From positions 1 to 64,000 of the forward strand of contig VBDR01000023.1 of NCBI GenBank assembly GCA_005882135.1: a stretch of 64,000 nucleotides of DNA. The letters run 5' to 3'. The stretch is from Chloroflexota bacterium (GTDB lineage Bacteria > Chloroflexota > Dormibacteria > Dormibacterales > Dormibacteraceae). Below are positions 55,616-61,500 of this stretch, in pieces. A program made the translations under genes and the position numbers. The notes beneath the pieces were generated by a model. That model was given only the letters and a program-made list of their open reading frames with translations. It did not search any database and had not been told where the DNA came from. The first letter of the stretch is position 1. Each line of letters begins with the position of its first letter.

Positions 55616-56272
55616 GTGAGGCTCGTCGCCGAGTCGTTCGCCTGGCCCTTTCGCGGCCGGTGGCGATCCCCCTTGGCGGCCGGCATCGTGGTCACGGCCC
55701 TGCTGCCCCTTCTCTTCGTCGTCTGGCTGGGATACGCGATCGCCGCCACGCGGGCGGCGGAGGAGGACCCGTCGCAAGGACCGCCGGCGTGGCGGCTGTC
55801 TGGGCGTCTGCTGACCGACGGGGTTTGGGCTTCCCTCGCTGTCGCCCTGACGGTGGCTCCCTTTGCGCTCGCCTGGAATCCGCTCGCCGCGCTGCTGCTG
55901 AGCGCCGGGGTTGGGCCGGCCGGCGATGCGGCCCTGGCCCAGCTCTACGCGCACGTCTTCGCGTTGCTCGCTCTGGCCCTCCCCTGGGGGCTCGTCGCGC
56001 TGCTCGTGCTGCCGCACTCGATCGCTGCCTTTGCCGCCAGCGGCAAGCCGGCGGATCTCTTCAACTTCGCCGAAGCCGTCCGCGACGTGCGCCGCGACTT
56101 CGTGACCTGGAACGTAGCGGCGGCGGCCATCGTCACGGGGTGGGCCGTCGGGCTGGCGTGCGCCGGGCTGCTGTGCGTCGGAATCGTGCCCGGCATCTTC
56201 TACGCCATCCTTGTGAGCGCACATGCCGCCGCAGCGCTCCACGGTCAAGGTCCGCATCCATCCGCTGGGTGA
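55616..56272 (+). CDS. DUF4013-like multispanning membrane protein
   Basis: 218 aa from GTG. Residues ~10-25 then about five membrane segments (SPLAAGIVVTALLPLLFVVWLGYAIAATR; PAWRLSGRLLTDGVWASLAVALTVAPF; AAFAASGKPADLFNFAEAVRDVRRDFVTWNVAAAAIV; GIVPGIFYAILVSAHAAAALHGQG). The FNFAEA-like pattern with N-terminal R-LLxDGxW resembles DUF4013 membrane proteins. Function unknown. Overlaps pxpB by 50 nt. The 270-nt gap before it contains no convincing gene. Confidence 0.72.
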   Translation: MRLVAESFAWPFRGRWRSPLAAGIVVTALLPLLFVVWLGYAIAATRAAEEDPSQGPPAWRLSGRLLTDGVWASLAVALTVAPFALAWNPLAALLLSAGVGPAGDAALAQLYAHVFALLALALPWGLVALLVLPHSIAAFAASGKPADLFNFAEAVRDVRRDFVTWNVAAAAIVTGWAVGLACAGLLCVGIVPGIFYAILVSAHAAAALHGQGPHPSAG

Positions 56273-56879
56273 TACGGCACTCCTCGCCGAGCTCGGCACG
56301 CGGCTCGACACCGCCGTCAACACCCGCTCGATCGCACTCGCCTCTGCCCTGAAAAAGCGGCGCGACGTGCGGCAGGCCGTCGCCGGAGCCGCCAGCGTCA
56401 CCGTGCAGTTCGACCCCGACCAGGTGACCCACGTCGCGCTGGCGGCCGCCATCCGGCGGCTCGCGAGCAAACGCCCACCGATGGAGGAGCCAGGACGCCT
56501 GCACCGCATCCCCGTTGTCTACGACGGCCCCGACCTCCAGGCCGTCGCTTCCGCCCTGGGCCTGTCCCAGCAGAAGGTGGTCGAGATCCACAGCCGGCCG
56601 ATCTACCGGGCCTTCCTGATCGGCTTCGTTCCTGGATGGGCGTACCTCGGACCGCTGCCTGACGAGCTCGTGCTTCCGCGCAGGCCAGATCCGCGGCGGC
56701 AGGTCCCCGCGGGGTCGGTGGCGATCGCCGGCCACCAGACCGGCATCTATCCGCTGAACTCGCCGGGAGGGTGGCACCTCATCGGGCGCACGTCGGTGAG
56801 GCTCTTCCTGCCGGATTCGGATCCACCCTCGCTCTTCCGGGCCGGCGACCGGGTGAAGTTCTTCCCGATCGCTGAATGA
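56223..56879 (+). CDS. pxpB: 5-oxoprolinase subunit B (KipI-like)
   Basis: 218 aa, KipI/allophanate hydrolase subunit-1 fold. HPLGDTALLAELGTRLD, VTVQFDPDQV, RLHRIPVVYDGPDL, then IYRAFLIGFVPGWAYLGPLPDELVLPRRPDPRRQVPAGSVAIAGHQTGIYPLNSPGGWHLIGRT. With PxpA and PxpC it hydrolyses 5-oxoproline (pyroglutamate) to glutamate using ATP. PxpC overlaps by 4 nt. PxpA lies 3.5 kb away on the other strand. Confidence 0.94.
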   Translation: MPPQRSTVKVRIHPLGDTALLAELGTRLDTAVNTRSIALASALKKRRDVRQAVAGAASVTVQFDPDQVTHVALAAAIRRLASKRPPMEEPGRLHRIPVVYDGPDLQAVASALGLSQQKVVEIHSRPIYRAFLIGFVPGWAYLGPLPDELVLPRRPDPRRQVPAGSVAIAGHQTGIYPLNSPGGWHLIGRTSVRLFLPDSDPPSLFRAGDRVKFFPIAE

Positions 56880-57808
56880 CCGAGGTTCTGCGCGTCCACG
56901 AACCTGGCCTCTTCACCACTATCCAGGACACCGGGCGACTGCATGCAATCGCATCAGGGGTGCCGCCCGGCGGCGCCATGGACCGCTTCGCCCACTCGGC
57001 CGCCAACCTGATCGTGGGCAACGATCGCAGCGCCGCAACGCTCGAATGCACGCTGACCGGACCGGGTCTTCTGATCGAGGCGCCTTGCCTGGTCGCGGTC
57101 ACCGGCGCCGACTTCGACCTGCGCGTCAACGGCGCACCGGCCCCGGCGTGGATCGCGATATCTCTGCGCGCCGGCGATGAGCTGGCTTTCGCAGGCCGGC
57201 GCAGCGGCGCGCGGGCGTACCTCGCGGTCGCGGGCGGCGTCCTGGGCGATCGATGGCTCGGGTCGATGTCGACCAACGTGATGGCCGCCCGCGGCGGAAT
57301 GCACGGACGCCCCCTGGCGACGGGCGATGTGATAGCGGCCGGGCAATCCGCGATGGCTGCGGTCACGGGCCGGGGCCTGGCCCGACAGCTGCGGCCGCGT
57401 TACGACGAGCACACGCTCCACCTCGTCGCGGGGCCGCACATCAGCCGTCTTGGTGCGGATGCCCGCGCCGCGCTGTTCAGCTCGGCGTTTGTGGTGAGCC
57501 CCGATTCCAACCGCATGGGCTACCGGCTGGAAGGCCCTGGCCTCGAGACGTCAGGCGAGGAGCTGCTCTCCTTCGGCCTCGTCGCCGGAGCCCTGCAGCT
57601 GCCGTCCAGCGGGCAGCCGATCCTGCTCATGGCCGACCACCAGACCGCCGGCGGCTACCCTGTCGTGGCGACCGTGGTCAGCGCGTCCATGGCTGTGGCG
57701 GCCCAGCTGGCGCCGGGCGATGAGGTGCGTTTTGCGGAGACGTCGATCGAAACCGCGCTTCAGATGCGCGCGGTTCAGCGCGAGGCGCTCGAGTCCCTGA
57801 CCAGCTGA
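56876..57808 (+). CDS. pxpC: 5-oxoprolinase subunit C
   Basis: 310 aa, allophanate hydrolase subunit-2/biotin-dependent carboxyltransferase fold. VHEPGLFTTIQDTGRLHAIASGVPPGGAMDRFAHSAANLIVGN, ECTLTGPGLLIEAPCLVAVTGAD, and SPDSNRMGYRLEGP near the end are diagnostic. The 3' 34 nt overlap the convergent DinB gene. Confidence 0.94.
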   Translation: MTEVLRVHEPGLFTTIQDTGRLHAIASGVPPGGAMDRFAHSAANLIVGNDRSAATLECTLTGPGLLIEAPCLVAVTGADFDLRVNGAPAPAWIAISLRAGDELAFAGRRSGARAYLAVAGGVLGDRWLGSMSTNVMAARGGMHGRPLATGDVIAAGQSAMAAVTGRGLARQLRPRYDEHTLHLVAGPHISRLGADARAALFSSAFVVSPDSNRMGYRLEGPGLETSGEELLSFGLVAGALQLPSSGQPILLMADHQTAGGYPVVATVVSASMAVAAQLAPGDEVRFAETSIETALQMRAVQREALESLTS

Positions 57809-58284
57809 TTGATCCAGGCGATGTGCTCCGCGTAGTGCTCCCAGGTGTTGCCCGCCACCCAATCGACCGCAGGCCGGTCGTCGTTGGGATCGCGCGGATC
57901 ATTCGGTTGGTAGTGGTTGTACGAGAGCTGCAGGTCGTCATCGCTCAGCCTGCCCAGGCGCTGCGACAGCGCGGCATGGGTGTCGCGAAAATACGCAAGC
58001 GCCTGCTCGGGAGTCTTGTCTCGGTGCAGCGCCCAGACCGCGGCGTTGATCGCGTCCGTCTCCTCATCAGCCGCAGGCACGCCCATCGCGGAGCGCCGGT
58101 CACCTCCGTCGAGGAGGGCCAGGAGCGAATGCTCCCAGGCGGCGATGTGAACGAGGTGATCCTTGACCGCCCAGCCGTCGGCGCCGCTCAGCGTGAGACC
58201 GGCAGGACCGAGGGACTCGACAAGTGCGGTGAGCTCCTGCCAACCCGCCTCGATGGGCTCGATGACGCCGTTGGGTGTGGTCAC
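57775..58284 (-). CDS. DinB/maleylpyruvate-isomerase-fold protein
   Basis: 169 aa four-helix-bundle protein: metal His candidates in WAVKDHLVHIAAWEHSL and NTWEHYAEHIAWINQLV. GTG start overlaps the peroxiredoxin stop (GTGA). The family includes mycothiol/bacillithiol-dependent transferases and DinB damage-inducible proteins; substrate unknown. Last gene of the moaC operon. Confidence 0.85.
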   Translation of the reverse strand: MTTPNGVIEPIEAGWQELTALVESLGPAGLTLSGADGWAVKDHLVHIAAWEHSLLALLDGGDRRSAMGVPAADEETDAINAAVWALHRDKTPEQALAYFRDTHAALSQRLGRLSDDDLQLSYNHYQPNDPRDPNDDRPAVDWVAGNTWEHYAEHIAWINQLVRDSSASR

Positions 58285-58763
58285 TCGCTTCCCGCGATAC
58301 CCTTCGCCTCGCCGATCACCGCGTCGTAATCTGGCTGCGGTCGCTCACGCGACGCGACCCACGTCCACCTGATGACGCCTTGCCTGTCGATTATGAAAAT
58401 CGTGCGCCGGGCCATGCCGGAGTAGCCGGCGACGTCATCGCGTCGCACCCCGTAATCGGTCACCATCTTGCGCTCGAAGTCGCCGATCAGGTCGAACGGC
58501 AGGCCACCGAGCTCCTTGGCAAACGCCTGATGAGAGAAGACGGAGTCGACGCTGATTCCGTAGATGCCGACGCCGTTGGCAACCGCGTCCTCGTACCTTG
58601 ACCGAAACTCGGTCAGCTCGGTTCTTCAACCACCCGTGAAGTCGAGAACATAGAAAAGGAATATGAGGGCTCGATATTTCTGAAGGGCATCGCCCAGCGT
58701 CAGCTCCTGGCCGCCCGTCGTGGGCAGCTTGAAATCGGGAGCCTTCTCCCCGACCTGCAGCAC
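58281..58763 (-). CDS. prxU: Selenocysteine peroxiredoxin, in-frame UGA at codon 46
   Basis: 160 aa if UGA 58626-58628 is read as Sec. N-half: VLQVGEKAPDFKLPTTGG, ALIFLFYVLDFTGG. The UGA follows, then RTELTEFRSRYEDAVANGVG, IYGISVDSVFSHQAFAKELG, RRTIFIIDRQGVIRWTW. AhpC/TSA peroxiredoxins have their peroxidatic Cys at this exact spot (FYPxDFT..C..E...F). No other Cys exists in the protein, so it would be a 1-Sec type enzyme. Starting 11 nt 3' of the UGA is a perfect stem-loop (58599-58615). The stop overlaps the DinB start, so translation of the C-half is needed for coupling. A sense-to-nonsense mutation is the alternative. Confidence 0.85.
58599..58615 (-). promoter_or_regulatory. Bacterial SECIS-like stem-loop after the peroxiredoxin UGA
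   Basis: On the coding strand TGACCGA-GTT-TCGGTCA: seven perfect pairs and a three-base loop beginning with G. The loop starts 17 nt after the UGA, within the 16-37 nt window of the bacterial SECIS consensus, which asks for a G in the first loop positions. Coding constraint and RNA fold coincide. Confidence 0.75.
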
Positions 58764-58773
58764 GCGAAAGAGT

Positions 58774-59571
58774 TTATTCGGCTCGGCGCTCCAGCACGTA
58801 CCAGCCGGAGCGCGTGGCGCCGGCGATGATGTAGCCCGCGCTCAGCGATCCGCCGAGCGCATTGCGCAGCGCGATGCGCCATCCGCGCGCAAGCGCCGGG
58901 GCAGAGCGTCTCAACGCGACGATGTCCGCCGGCGTCTGGCATAAAAGGACGCGCGCGGACGAGGTGGCCGCAATTGGCTCCTGGTCCGCGCCGGCGGAGA
59001 GGATCGTTTCACCTCCGGCTGTTGCAAGATCGGGGTCCGGTGCATCGCCGGCGGCCGCCGCCTCGGCCTGGCGCGAGTCGAGTTCCCAGCGGATGAGCAG
59101 GCGGTCCGATTCGTCCCCGGCGTTGATCCCATCCCGCATCTCCCCATAGAAATCGACCAGGTAGCGCGGCGCCACGGCGCCGAGCTTGGTGAGGTTGAAG
59201 TAGGCGTTCCGGCGCACAAGGGGGTCGGTCGTCCACTCCATCGATGTGACCCCACGCGCGAGGCACCACCGCCTCTGATGCTGCTTGAGCTCGAATCCAA
59301 GGCCGTGCGCCTCGCTGCCCGGGAGCACGCCAAGGATGTGCGAGTGCATGTGCAGGTGTTCGGAGGGATCGCGGCCCAGCCAGCCCACGAGGCCACCGAT
59401 GAGGCGTCCGTCCAGGAATGCGCCCGCAACGTAATTCCCCGAATGGGCGAGCGCCTTGAGGATGTCCGAGCTGATCGGCGGCTCACCAGGGCGACCCCAC
59501 ACGACCGCAAAGAGTTCGGCCAGCCGGCGCAGGTCCGCGAGCTCGCTCAACCCGGAGATCTCGTACTTCAT
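58774..59571 (-). CDS. GNAT-family N-acetyltransferase
   Basis: 265 aa from ATG 59571. MKYEISGLSELADLRRLAELFAVVWG, then YVAGAFLDGRLIGGLVGWLGRDPSEHLHMHSHILGVLPGSEAHGLGFELKQHQRRWCLARGVTSMEWTTDPLVRRNAYFNLTKLGAVAPRYLVDFYG: the acetyl-CoA loop with QHQRRW and the NAYFNLxKLGA segment, as in the COG3375-type predicted acetyltransferases. C-terminal ~90 residues are extra. ATG overlaps the upstream stop by 4 nt; the peroxiredoxin starts 11 nt later. Confidence 0.85.
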   Translation of the reverse strand: MKYEISGLSELADLRRLAELFAVVWGRPGEPPISSDILKALAHSGNYVAGAFLDGRLIGGLVGWLGRDPSEHLHMHSHILGVLPGSEAHGLGFELKQHQRRWCLARGVTSMEWTTDPLVRRNAYFNLTKLGAVAPRYLVDFYGEMRDGINAGDESDRLLIRWELDSRQAEAAAAGDAPDPDLATAGGETILSAGADQEPIAATSSARVLLCQTPADIVALRRSAPALARGWRIALRNALGGSLSAGYIIAGATRSGWYVLERRAE

Positions 59572-60347
59572 GCCAGACCGAGGCGGCGGCCGACCAGGAG
59601 CGAGGCAGCCTGTACTAAGAGCGCGCAGACGATCGCCGAGATGAAGGCGAAAACGATGCCGTTGGGCAACAGCAGCGCCAGGACCAGGAAGAACGAAGCG
59701 AACGCGAAAAGCCCGAACAACAGCCCGCGCAGCACGCCGACGGCTGAAGCCGGGCCCTGGATCCGGTGCGCGAATGCGGCGAGCACGGTCGCGTAAAGGG
59801 GGAACGGAGCGAGGAGGCCGGCGAGGCGCGGACCGAGAAGAGGCGCCGCCGTCGTCAACGCGACTACGAACGCGGTGGCGACGAACATGCGAGCAGGGAT
59901 GTCCCAACGCGGGAAATCGACCTGCCTGGCGCTGCGGGTGGCCTGACCAGGCATCAAGAACAAAGAGACCACCAGAACCACGATCGTGACGACAAAGAAT
60001 GCAGGCGCCGGCAGGATGAAGGTGTCGAGCACGATCGTGGCGGCGGCGAACGCGATCGCCGCCGCCGCCAGCGAGGCCGCCCAACCAGATCGTTGAGCCA
60101 CCCACGAGTAGGCCAGGCAGAACGCAGCCTGCGAAGCGGTGCCGGCCATGATCCCGGCGGCCGCGCCGGCGGCAAAACGCGGCCCTGGATCGAGGGCAAG
60201 AAAAAATGCGATCGGGGCTGAGGTGAACGGCATCCCGATCAGCCACCCACCGACGCCTGATCCCCACCTTCGGCCGGCGAGGCTTGCGCCGCCGACGAGC
60301 ACGGGCGTCAGGATGAGCTTGAGGGCCAGGGCGCCGGCCGGAGTCAC
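59568..60347 (-). CDS. Membrane protein of unknown function
   Basis: 259 aa with about eight membrane segments: LALKLILTPVLVGGASLAGRRWGSGVGGWLIGMPFTSAPIAFFLAL at the N-terminus, then IVLDTFILPAPAFFVVTIVVLVVSLFL, RMFVATAFVVALTTAAPLLGPRLAGLLAPFPLYATVLAAF and a C-terminal pair. No family I can name; resembles small permease-like integral proteins. Overlaps pxpA and the GNAT gene by 4 nt each. Confidence 0.72.
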   Translation of the reverse strand: MTPAGALALKLILTPVLVGGASLAGRRWGSGVGGWLIGMPFTSAPIAFFLALDPGPRFAAGAAAGIMAGTASQAAFCLAYSWVAQRSGWAASLAAAAIAFAAATIVLDTFILPAPAFFVVTIVVLVVSLFLMPGQATRSARQVDFPRWDIPARMFVATAFVVALTTAAPLLGPRLAGLLAPFPLYATVLAAFAHRIQGPASAVGVLRGLLFGLFAFASFFLVLALLLPNGIVFAFISAIVCALLVQAASLLVGRRLGLA

Positions 60348-61021
60348 CGCGTCAGCTGGGTCGTCTCGATGCCGGCGTCGCGGAGCGCCTGCCGGACCGT
60401 CGCCGCGACCTGGGCCGCGCCTTTGGTGTCGCCGTGGACGCAGATCGTGTCGTAGCGGCCCGACTTGGCGAGAGCGACGGCCTGCTGCGCCGCCCGCGGC
60501 GGGTTCAAGAGCGCGCCTGACTCGCTGCGGGGCGCCAGGCTGCCGTCCGGCAGCATGAGGCGGTCCGCGAAGCCTTCGCGGTAAGCCGGGATGCCGGCCC
60601 GCTCGGCCGCAGCCCGGATCTCGAATTCCGGTTGCCCGACCAGGCCCACGCCGTGCGCCTTCGCGACCCGGGCGAGCGCATCTGCCGCGGCCGCGTCGCG
60701 CTGGCAGCGGTGATAGAGCGCGCCGTGTGGCTTGACATAGGCGATGGGCGCGATCGCGGCCAAACCCGCGACCTGAAACGCGATCAGCGCCTCGATCTCA
60801 TCCGCCGAAAGCGATCGCTCGTGGCGGCCGAAGCCGGCGCGATCGTCATAGCCGGGGTGCGCGCCAACCTCCACCCCGAGCTTGCGGCAGCGCCAGGCGG
60901 TCGCGATCGTGATCGTGGCCGAGCCGGCGTGGACGCCACACGCCACGTTGGCGCTGTCGACGCAGGCGAGGATCGCCTCGTCTTCGCCGGCGCCCTCACC
61001 GATATCGGCGTTGAGATTCAC
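60344..61021 (-). CDS. pxpA: 5-oxoprolinase subunit A (LamB/YcsF)
   Basis: 225 aa from GTG 61021 inside the upstream stop (GTGA). LNADIGEGAGEDEAILACVDSANVACGVHAGSATIT, GAHPGYDDRAGFGRHERSL, PIAYVKPHGALYHRCQRDAAAADALARVA, FADRLMLPDGSLAPRSESGALL, ICVHGDTKGAAQVAATVRQAL: all PxpA motifs with the metal/catalytic His and Asp. Slightly short (usual ~250). Completes the PxpABC enzyme with the + strand genes at 56223 and 56876. Confidence 0.93.
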   Translation of the reverse strand: MNLNADIGEGAGEDEAILACVDSANVACGVHAGSATITIATAWRCRKLGVEVGAHPGYDDRAGFGRHERSLSADEIEALIAFQVAGLAAIAPIAYVKPHGALYHRCQRDAAAADALARVAKAHGVGLVGQPEFEIRAAAERAGIPAYREGFADRLMLPDGSLAPRSESGALLNPPRAAQQAVALAKSGRYDTICVHGDTKGAAQVAATVRQALRDAGIETTQLTR

Positions 61022-61500
61022 TCGTGGTGCGTGTCGCCGTGGAGCAGCTGAATCGCGTGCGGCAGCGCAGGCATCACAGCTTGAAGTGATTCGGTGGCGC
61101 CGTTGACGCTGCCTGGCACGTTGAGGATCAGGGACTGGCCGCGCACGCCCGCGCCCCCGCGAGAGAGCGCCGCCATCGGCGTGCTCGACGAACCGGCCCT
61201 GCGCATCAGCTCGCCGAGACCAGGCACCTCGTAGTCGATGAGCATCGCCGTCGCCTGGGGGGTCACGTCTCTCGGACCCAGGCCGGTGCCGCCTGTCGTC
61301 ACCACAAGGTCCTGGCCGTCGACGACTGCGGCCGCGATCGCGTCGGAGATGCGTTCCTGTTTGTCCGGCACGACCTCGGGACCGGAGACCTGGAAGCCGG
61401 CTGCCTTCAACAGCTCGATCACAGCGGGGCCGCTGATATCGTCGCGGGTCCCTGCCGACACGCCGTCGCTGACGGTGATCACATGCGCGCGGGGATTCAT
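61018..61500 (-). CDS. mog: Molybdopterin adenylyltransferase-type protein (MoaB/Mog)
   Basis: 160 aa from ATG 61500, which overlaps the moaC stop (ATGA). [102 protein letters not shown]. The TGGTG and LPGSP-like NVPGS motifs define the MPT-binding MogA/MoaB fold, which adenylates molybdopterin. A TTG 15 nt upstream is a less likely start. Confidence 0.93.

Follow-up and report, generated by a model that had tools for sequence, protein, structure and literature searches.

How should a gene be read when its frame is broken only once, by a stop codon lying exactly at the catalytic position of the enzyme it appears to encode? The question is raised by a locus in the window analyzed here (64,000 nt of contig VBDR01000023.1), which belongs to a MAG (2.71 Mb, 85% complete, 91 contigs) of Candidatus Dormibacterota, a lineage known from soil MAGs. 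Translation of the minus strand from 58763 to 58281 gives one continuous peroxiredoxin frame of 160 residues (VLQVGEKAPDF...FYVLDFTGG-U-RTELTEF...IAGSE), as the first-pass annotation had claimed, with the TGA of residue 46 (58628-58626) as its sole interruption and without a single Cys in the predicted protein (Table 1). The Pfam AhpC-TSA profile covers residues 4-133, crossing the TGA, with 115.5 bits against a cut-off of 26, and the internal codon aligns with the peroxidatic Cys of distant homologues. The described overlap between the end of this gene and the start codon of a DinB gene is also found, the terminal TGA (58283-58281) sharing two bases with the DinB GTG (58284-58282). This neighbour adjoins the peroxiredoxin gene in most loci of the same genus and in some others of the family, and it is at most a possible functional partner, the adjacency not being maintained through the family. 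In most family genomes the peroxiredoxin gene sits between those for PxpB/PxpC (5-oxoprolinase) and LamB/YcsF (PxpA), as it does at 56223-61090 of the window. An AT-rich stretch preceding the TGA had been singled out as well; it is real (62% AT in nt -51 to -10 versus 39% in the whole gene) but ordinary, because it encodes the hydrophobic beta-strand IFLFYVLDF, and it is weaker in relatives (on average 48% versus 36%).

Table 1. Features of the selenocysteine peroxiredoxin locus in window coordinates.
Feature	Position	Strand	Basis or remark
Sec peroxiredoxin gene (putative)	58281..58763	(-)	160 codons, GTG start, TGA stop; frame, Pfam match, AF2 model
In-frame TGA, predicted Sec codon, residue 46	58626..58628	(-)	Peroxidatic position; orthologue conservation
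Val39, replacing Pro of the motif Pxxx(T/S)xxC	58647..58649	(-)	f1 and f3 orthologues have Val, the 37 Cys homologues all have Pro
Thr43 of motif TxxU (here TGGU)	58635..58637	(-)	Homologue alignment
Arg120, catalytic Arg of peroxiredoxins	58404..58406	(-)	Homologue alignment
SECIS-like hairpin UGACCGA-GUU-UCGGUCA	58599..58615	(-)	10 nt after UGA; bSECIS model, compensatory changes
Apical loop GUU with loop G of bSECIS model	58606..58608	(-)	
Terminal TGA of the peroxiredoxin gene	58283-58281	(-)	
DinB/DUF1706 family gene	57775..58284	(-)	Start codon overlaps peroxiredoxin stop codon
GNAT acetyltransferase-like gene	58774..59571	(-)	Same strand, directly upstream of peroxiredoxin

The distribution of the internal codon among relatives goes a long way towards an answer. 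Orthologues were collected from 36 of the 37 genomes of the window's family (f1) and, in a second family of the class (f3), from 11 out of 12 genomes sampled, and all 47 carry TGA at the peroxidatic column, down to about 35% identity. Their terminal stops, in turn, are distributed among TGA (27), TAG (16) and TAA (4), and the internal codon is therefore not simply the preferred stop. The same codon is TGA in 38/38 Dormibacterota loci of a second public genome collection, whose organisms overlap with those of the first. Named matches with identities of 70-93% come from MAGs deposited as Chloroflexi or Candidatus Dormibacterota and for the most part recovered from soil, and no relative was found among viral contigs. 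The first-pass annotation had looked to close relatives for a Cys at this column, but there is none: the family is uniformly of the Sec type and Cys forms appear only in more distant proteins. Elsewhere in the protein, Cys is sporadic in a few orthologues and no resolving Cys is conserved. Purifying selection is strong and acts equally on the two halves, with median pairwise dN/dS values within the genus of 0.07 before the TGA and 0.08 after it, in agreement with the idea that both halves are conserved. A nonsense mutation or sequencing mistake splitting a dead gene, for which only the two fragments that standard annotation would yield could be adduced, deserves practically no credence and is, on this comparative record, already refuted by conservation, for the identical TGA recurs in orthologues from separately assembled genomes, none of which has a further stop or frameshift, and either half is under strong selection. 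A split gene coding for two proteins was likewise discarded, as the next frame to open with ATG does so at residue 100, within the fold. Reading of the UGA as an ordinary amino acid, be it through a reassigned code or general near-cognate tRNA readthrough, would accommodate an in-frame UGA followed by a sequence under selection. Nonetheless, UGA ends both this same gene and the neighbouring PxpC gene, the internal UGA is confined to the catalytic chalcogen column, the host genome holds genes for selenocysteine decoding, and the hairpin downstream of the codon covaries, all of which makes this reading scarcely credible.

The search for selenocysteine machinery suggested in the first-pass annotation succeeded in all but one respect. 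The host genome encodes a tRNA-Sec with UCA anticodon (72.5 bits) and, side by side on contig C6, selA (506 bits) and selB (350 bits), but no match to selD exceeds the cut-off in this 85%-complete MAG. The gene is nevertheless detected over cut-off in 31/37 family genomes, and in 29 of these it bears an in-frame TGA of its own, which is an independent sign of selenocysteine decoding in the family. Such a TGA is seen in selD of nearly all family and f3 genomes (L051-L056 among them), and is absent from two family members (G010, G022). The tRNA-Sec was detected in 29/37 family genomes. Six family MAGs carrying the peroxiredoxin gene lack both selA and selB, one of them (G007) being rated 95% complete; since these genes are neighbours, their joint absence could come from a single assembly gap. 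The four sampled class members without selA (G037, G043, G047, G057) have no TGA-bearing peroxiredoxin. Further redoxins with UGA were observed in sister genomes, some with the UxxC motif GDWUPYC (L077-L081 and L086, in G014, G023, G013, G010, G019 and G021) and others of a GGAUGAC type (L090/L091, in G003 and G010), and the lineage seems rich in selenoproteins.

A local signal for selenocysteine insertion can be recognized downstream of the codon. According to PMC13188914, the bacterial SECIS model comprises a loop of 3-9 nt with G in one of its first two positions, a stem of 4-16 bp, a spacing of 16-37 nt and a folding energy of at most -7.5 kcal/mol; the window hairpin, with 7 bp, a GUU loop, 17 nt between UGA and apical loop and -8.4 kcal/mol, fits this model as given there. 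The short hairpin folds better than shuffled sequences (z = -2.4) and it alone stands out, the longer stretch after the UGA being no different from shuffles (z -0.04). Across the family, the loop G is invariant in 36/36 f1 sequences, where it doubles as the third position of an invariant Glu codon, and only 16/36 f1 hairpins reach the energy limit of -7.5 kcal/mol. In f3 (L063-L073) the candidate element, CACCUC-CUUGC-GAGGUG, is well paired, lies in a different register and has its G at loop position 4, outside the published rule. Parts of the stem, moreover, fall on the conserved residues ELTEFRSR, and together with the shifted register in f3 this could suggest that the hairpin is a mere by-product of protein sequence and that selenocysteine is inserted without a local element. 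Against it, synonymous sites are constrained at the hairpin, synonymous divergence (pS) over codons +1 to +9 after the TGA being 0.31 versus 0.51 further on in f1, and 0.18 versus 0.55 in f3; the same 5-bp stem is present in 34/36 f1 sequences and in just 10% of synonymous randomisations; and double compensatory changes (G-C to U-A and A-U to U-A) have occurred at two stem pairs across the family. The covariation score of the stem was reached by 0/500 shuffles, a control that ignores relatedness, with changes stemming from few lineages, and covariation is hence to be understood as support for the hairpin, not as proof. We consider the by-product reading very unlikely.

With the frame, the conserved UGA, selection on its two sides, the hairpin, the machinery genes and the motif residues observed as described, it is almost certain, as far as sequence can tell, that selenocysteine would be inserted at codon 46 and that the gene encodes a selenocysteine peroxiredoxin. 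This supports the reading put forward in the first-pass annotation; an absence of sel genes and a decay of sister orthologues, either of which it had named as grounds for abandoning that reading, were both looked at and neither overturned it. The protein is predicted to adopt a peroxiredoxin fold (AlphaFold2, pLDDT 94.8), and at the Arg120 column every Sec row (117/117) and every Cys row (37/37) of the alignment shows Arg. In the mechanism that we propose, SelB and charged tRNA-Sec, with the hairpin just downstream, would decode UGA codon 46 as selenocysteine in the cell; the Sec selenolate would then attack the peroxide, aided by Thr43 and Arg120, and the resulting selenenic acid would be reduced by an external thiol. 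Such a 1-Sec cycle is likely because the protein has no resolving Cys. The Pro of the active-site motif is replaced, by Val in the window protein, and the presence of selenocysteine may have rendered it dispensable. The host genome contains five other AhpC-TSA matches, all without TGA; since the readable ones look like thioredoxin/TlpA-like proteins or MerR-fused redoxins, the Sec enzyme may be the main peroxiredoxin of its host. The latter likely respires aerobically, as a haem-copper oxidase subunit I is present in the MAG, in two pieces on two contigs. It can be argued that the protein is made with selenocysteine and is no longer a peroxidase, having taken up some other redox job (chemistry of sulfur species or thiols, a chaperone or a sensor), and the Pro-to-Val substitution within a motif that is otherwise strict, the lack of Cys and the failure of every specific NCBIfam peroxiredoxin model to reach its cut-off all lend some weight to this notion. 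We deem it unlikely, though worth entertaining, given that Thr43, Sec46 and Arg120, the residues with which peroxiredoxins bind and activate peroxide, are retained on an overall peroxiredoxin fold, albeit a modelled one, in what may be the main peroxiredoxin of the genome.

Selenocysteine peroxiredoxins are a known kind of enzyme, and more notable than finding one in this lineage is the loss of the motif Pro, which the first-pass annotation had missed. The definition of peroxiredoxins combines an absolutely conserved Arg, distant in sequence, with the motif Pxxx(T/S)xxC, which has been called definitive (PMC5302317), and for Sec peroxiredoxins PMC13188914 gives PxxxTxxU, with a Pro described as highly conserved. 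The window motif, VLDFTGGU, reads VxxxTxxU: Thr is kept, Pro has become Val and Cys has become Sec, so that it fits TxxU and departs from both longer forms. In homologues gathered across 400 genomes of Chloroflexota, with a small number of further phyla, Pro is absent in 81 of the 94 distinct Sec proteins of the tree set (mostly replaced by Val) and retained in 13, versus 0/37 losses among Cys proteins, in a set that is centred on Chloroflexota and whose Sec part is enriched for Pro loss by a sampling that began from a Pro-less query. The pattern FYV(L/F)DF(T/S)xx is followed by TGA in 37/400 genomes and by TGY in one; FYVxDF(T/S)xx-Cys was rejected as a Cys counterpart, its single match in the 400 genomes not being a peroxiredoxin. 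On a tree built without the Pro and Sec/Cys columns, Pro changes 10 times, well-supported branches making 5 of these changes unavoidable, and Sec/Cys 11 times, and the f1 and f3 proteins of the class fall in separate Sec clades. A phylogenetic sign test of Sec against Pro finds the direction always the same, with at most 5 well-supported pairs, short of significance; a causal link between selenocysteine and Pro loss is suggestive rather than proven, the independent losses being few (5-10).

Related variants were seen elsewhere. Some Sec peroxiredoxins carry the motif FDFGRxU (L160, L167, L173, L174), in which both Pro and Thr/Ser are replaced and Arg is kept. Peroxiredoxins with FYVL(D/A)FT before Sec occur outside Chloroflexota, in Acidobacteria gp13 (L137) and Binatota (L146 and L149), reflecting either a Pro-less group that extends beyond one phylum or mixed bins. 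On balance, we lean slightly towards a distinct and widespread group of seleno-peroxiredoxins in which the substitution of Sec for Cys removed the need for Pro, leaving Val, His, Leu, Tyr, Glu or Ser in its place. Under this reading, repeated loss of Pro among Sec lineages, with no loss in the sampled Cys proteins, would mean that selenocysteine chemistry reshapes a motif regarded as universal. No report of a missing Pro in Sec peroxiredoxins was found in the open-access papers searched and, within these bounds, the group lacking the motif Pro is what is new here, Sec peroxiredoxins as such being already known.

At a practical level, any database in which UGA terminates a gene will store this Dormibacterota enzyme as two fragments. 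More generally, retention of selenoproteins is described as rare among aerobic bacteria in a 2026 review (PMC13188914), while an earlier survey reported both aerobic and anaerobic users of selenocysteine (PMC5029168). A selenocysteine enzyme of presumably antioxidant activity, kept family-wide in bacteria with haem-copper oxidase, adds to one side of this open argument. The loss of Pro makes the sharper point, for it allows a direct test of the role of this residue through Sec/Val, Sec/Pro, Cys/Pro and Cys/Val enzymes.

Several known systems provide a frame for comparison. Sec peroxiredoxins are a listed selenoprotein family, recorded in 78 organisms (PMC5029168). The TxxU family of Sec peroxiredoxins (PF00578 / COG1225), which includes the Sargasso Sea peroxiredoxin (PMC1088965) and the proteins listed in PMC13188914, resembles the window protein in its fold, peroxidatic Sec, TxxU motif and in-frame UGA with a nearby hairpin, and differs from it at the Pro of PxxxTxxU, which is Val39 here; those two sources, in the portions available, make no mention of Chloroflexi or Dormibacterota, and no paper bringing together Dormibacter and selenocysteine was found among the open-access papers searched. 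PrxU of Eubacterium acidaminophilum (NCBIfam NF040737) is a homologous Sec peroxiredoxin, but with 61 bits the window protein stays below its cut-off of 270 and does not belong to the same subfamily; it likewise falls below the cut-offs for Prx-SUH (NF045827; 39.9 bits versus 298) and for the PrxQ/BCP equivalogs PRK09437 (52.1 versus 140) and PerredPrxQDein (51.7 versus 260). A resolving Cys is usual in PrxQ proteins and absent from the window protein. The closest solved structures in both fold and sequence are the Bcp4/peroxiredoxin Q proteins of Sulfolobus and Aeropyrum (3hjp, 2cx3, 4gqf), with Foldseek placing the predicted model nearest to Sulfolobus Bcp4 (3hjp, TM 0.88) and an E value of 1e-25 to 2cx3; where the window protein has Val39 these have Pro, and their active site is of the Cys type, with Ser in its place in 3hjp. 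The peroxiredoxin-like UxxC thiol:disulfide oxidoreductase (GDWUPYC type) found in several sister genomes is a Sec protein of the same superfamily, yet it bears its Sec three residues earlier, together with a partner Cys, and constitutes a separate family. Among all these systems, the window protein is homologous to the Sec peroxiredoxins and probably works like them, departing from the strict motif at one position.
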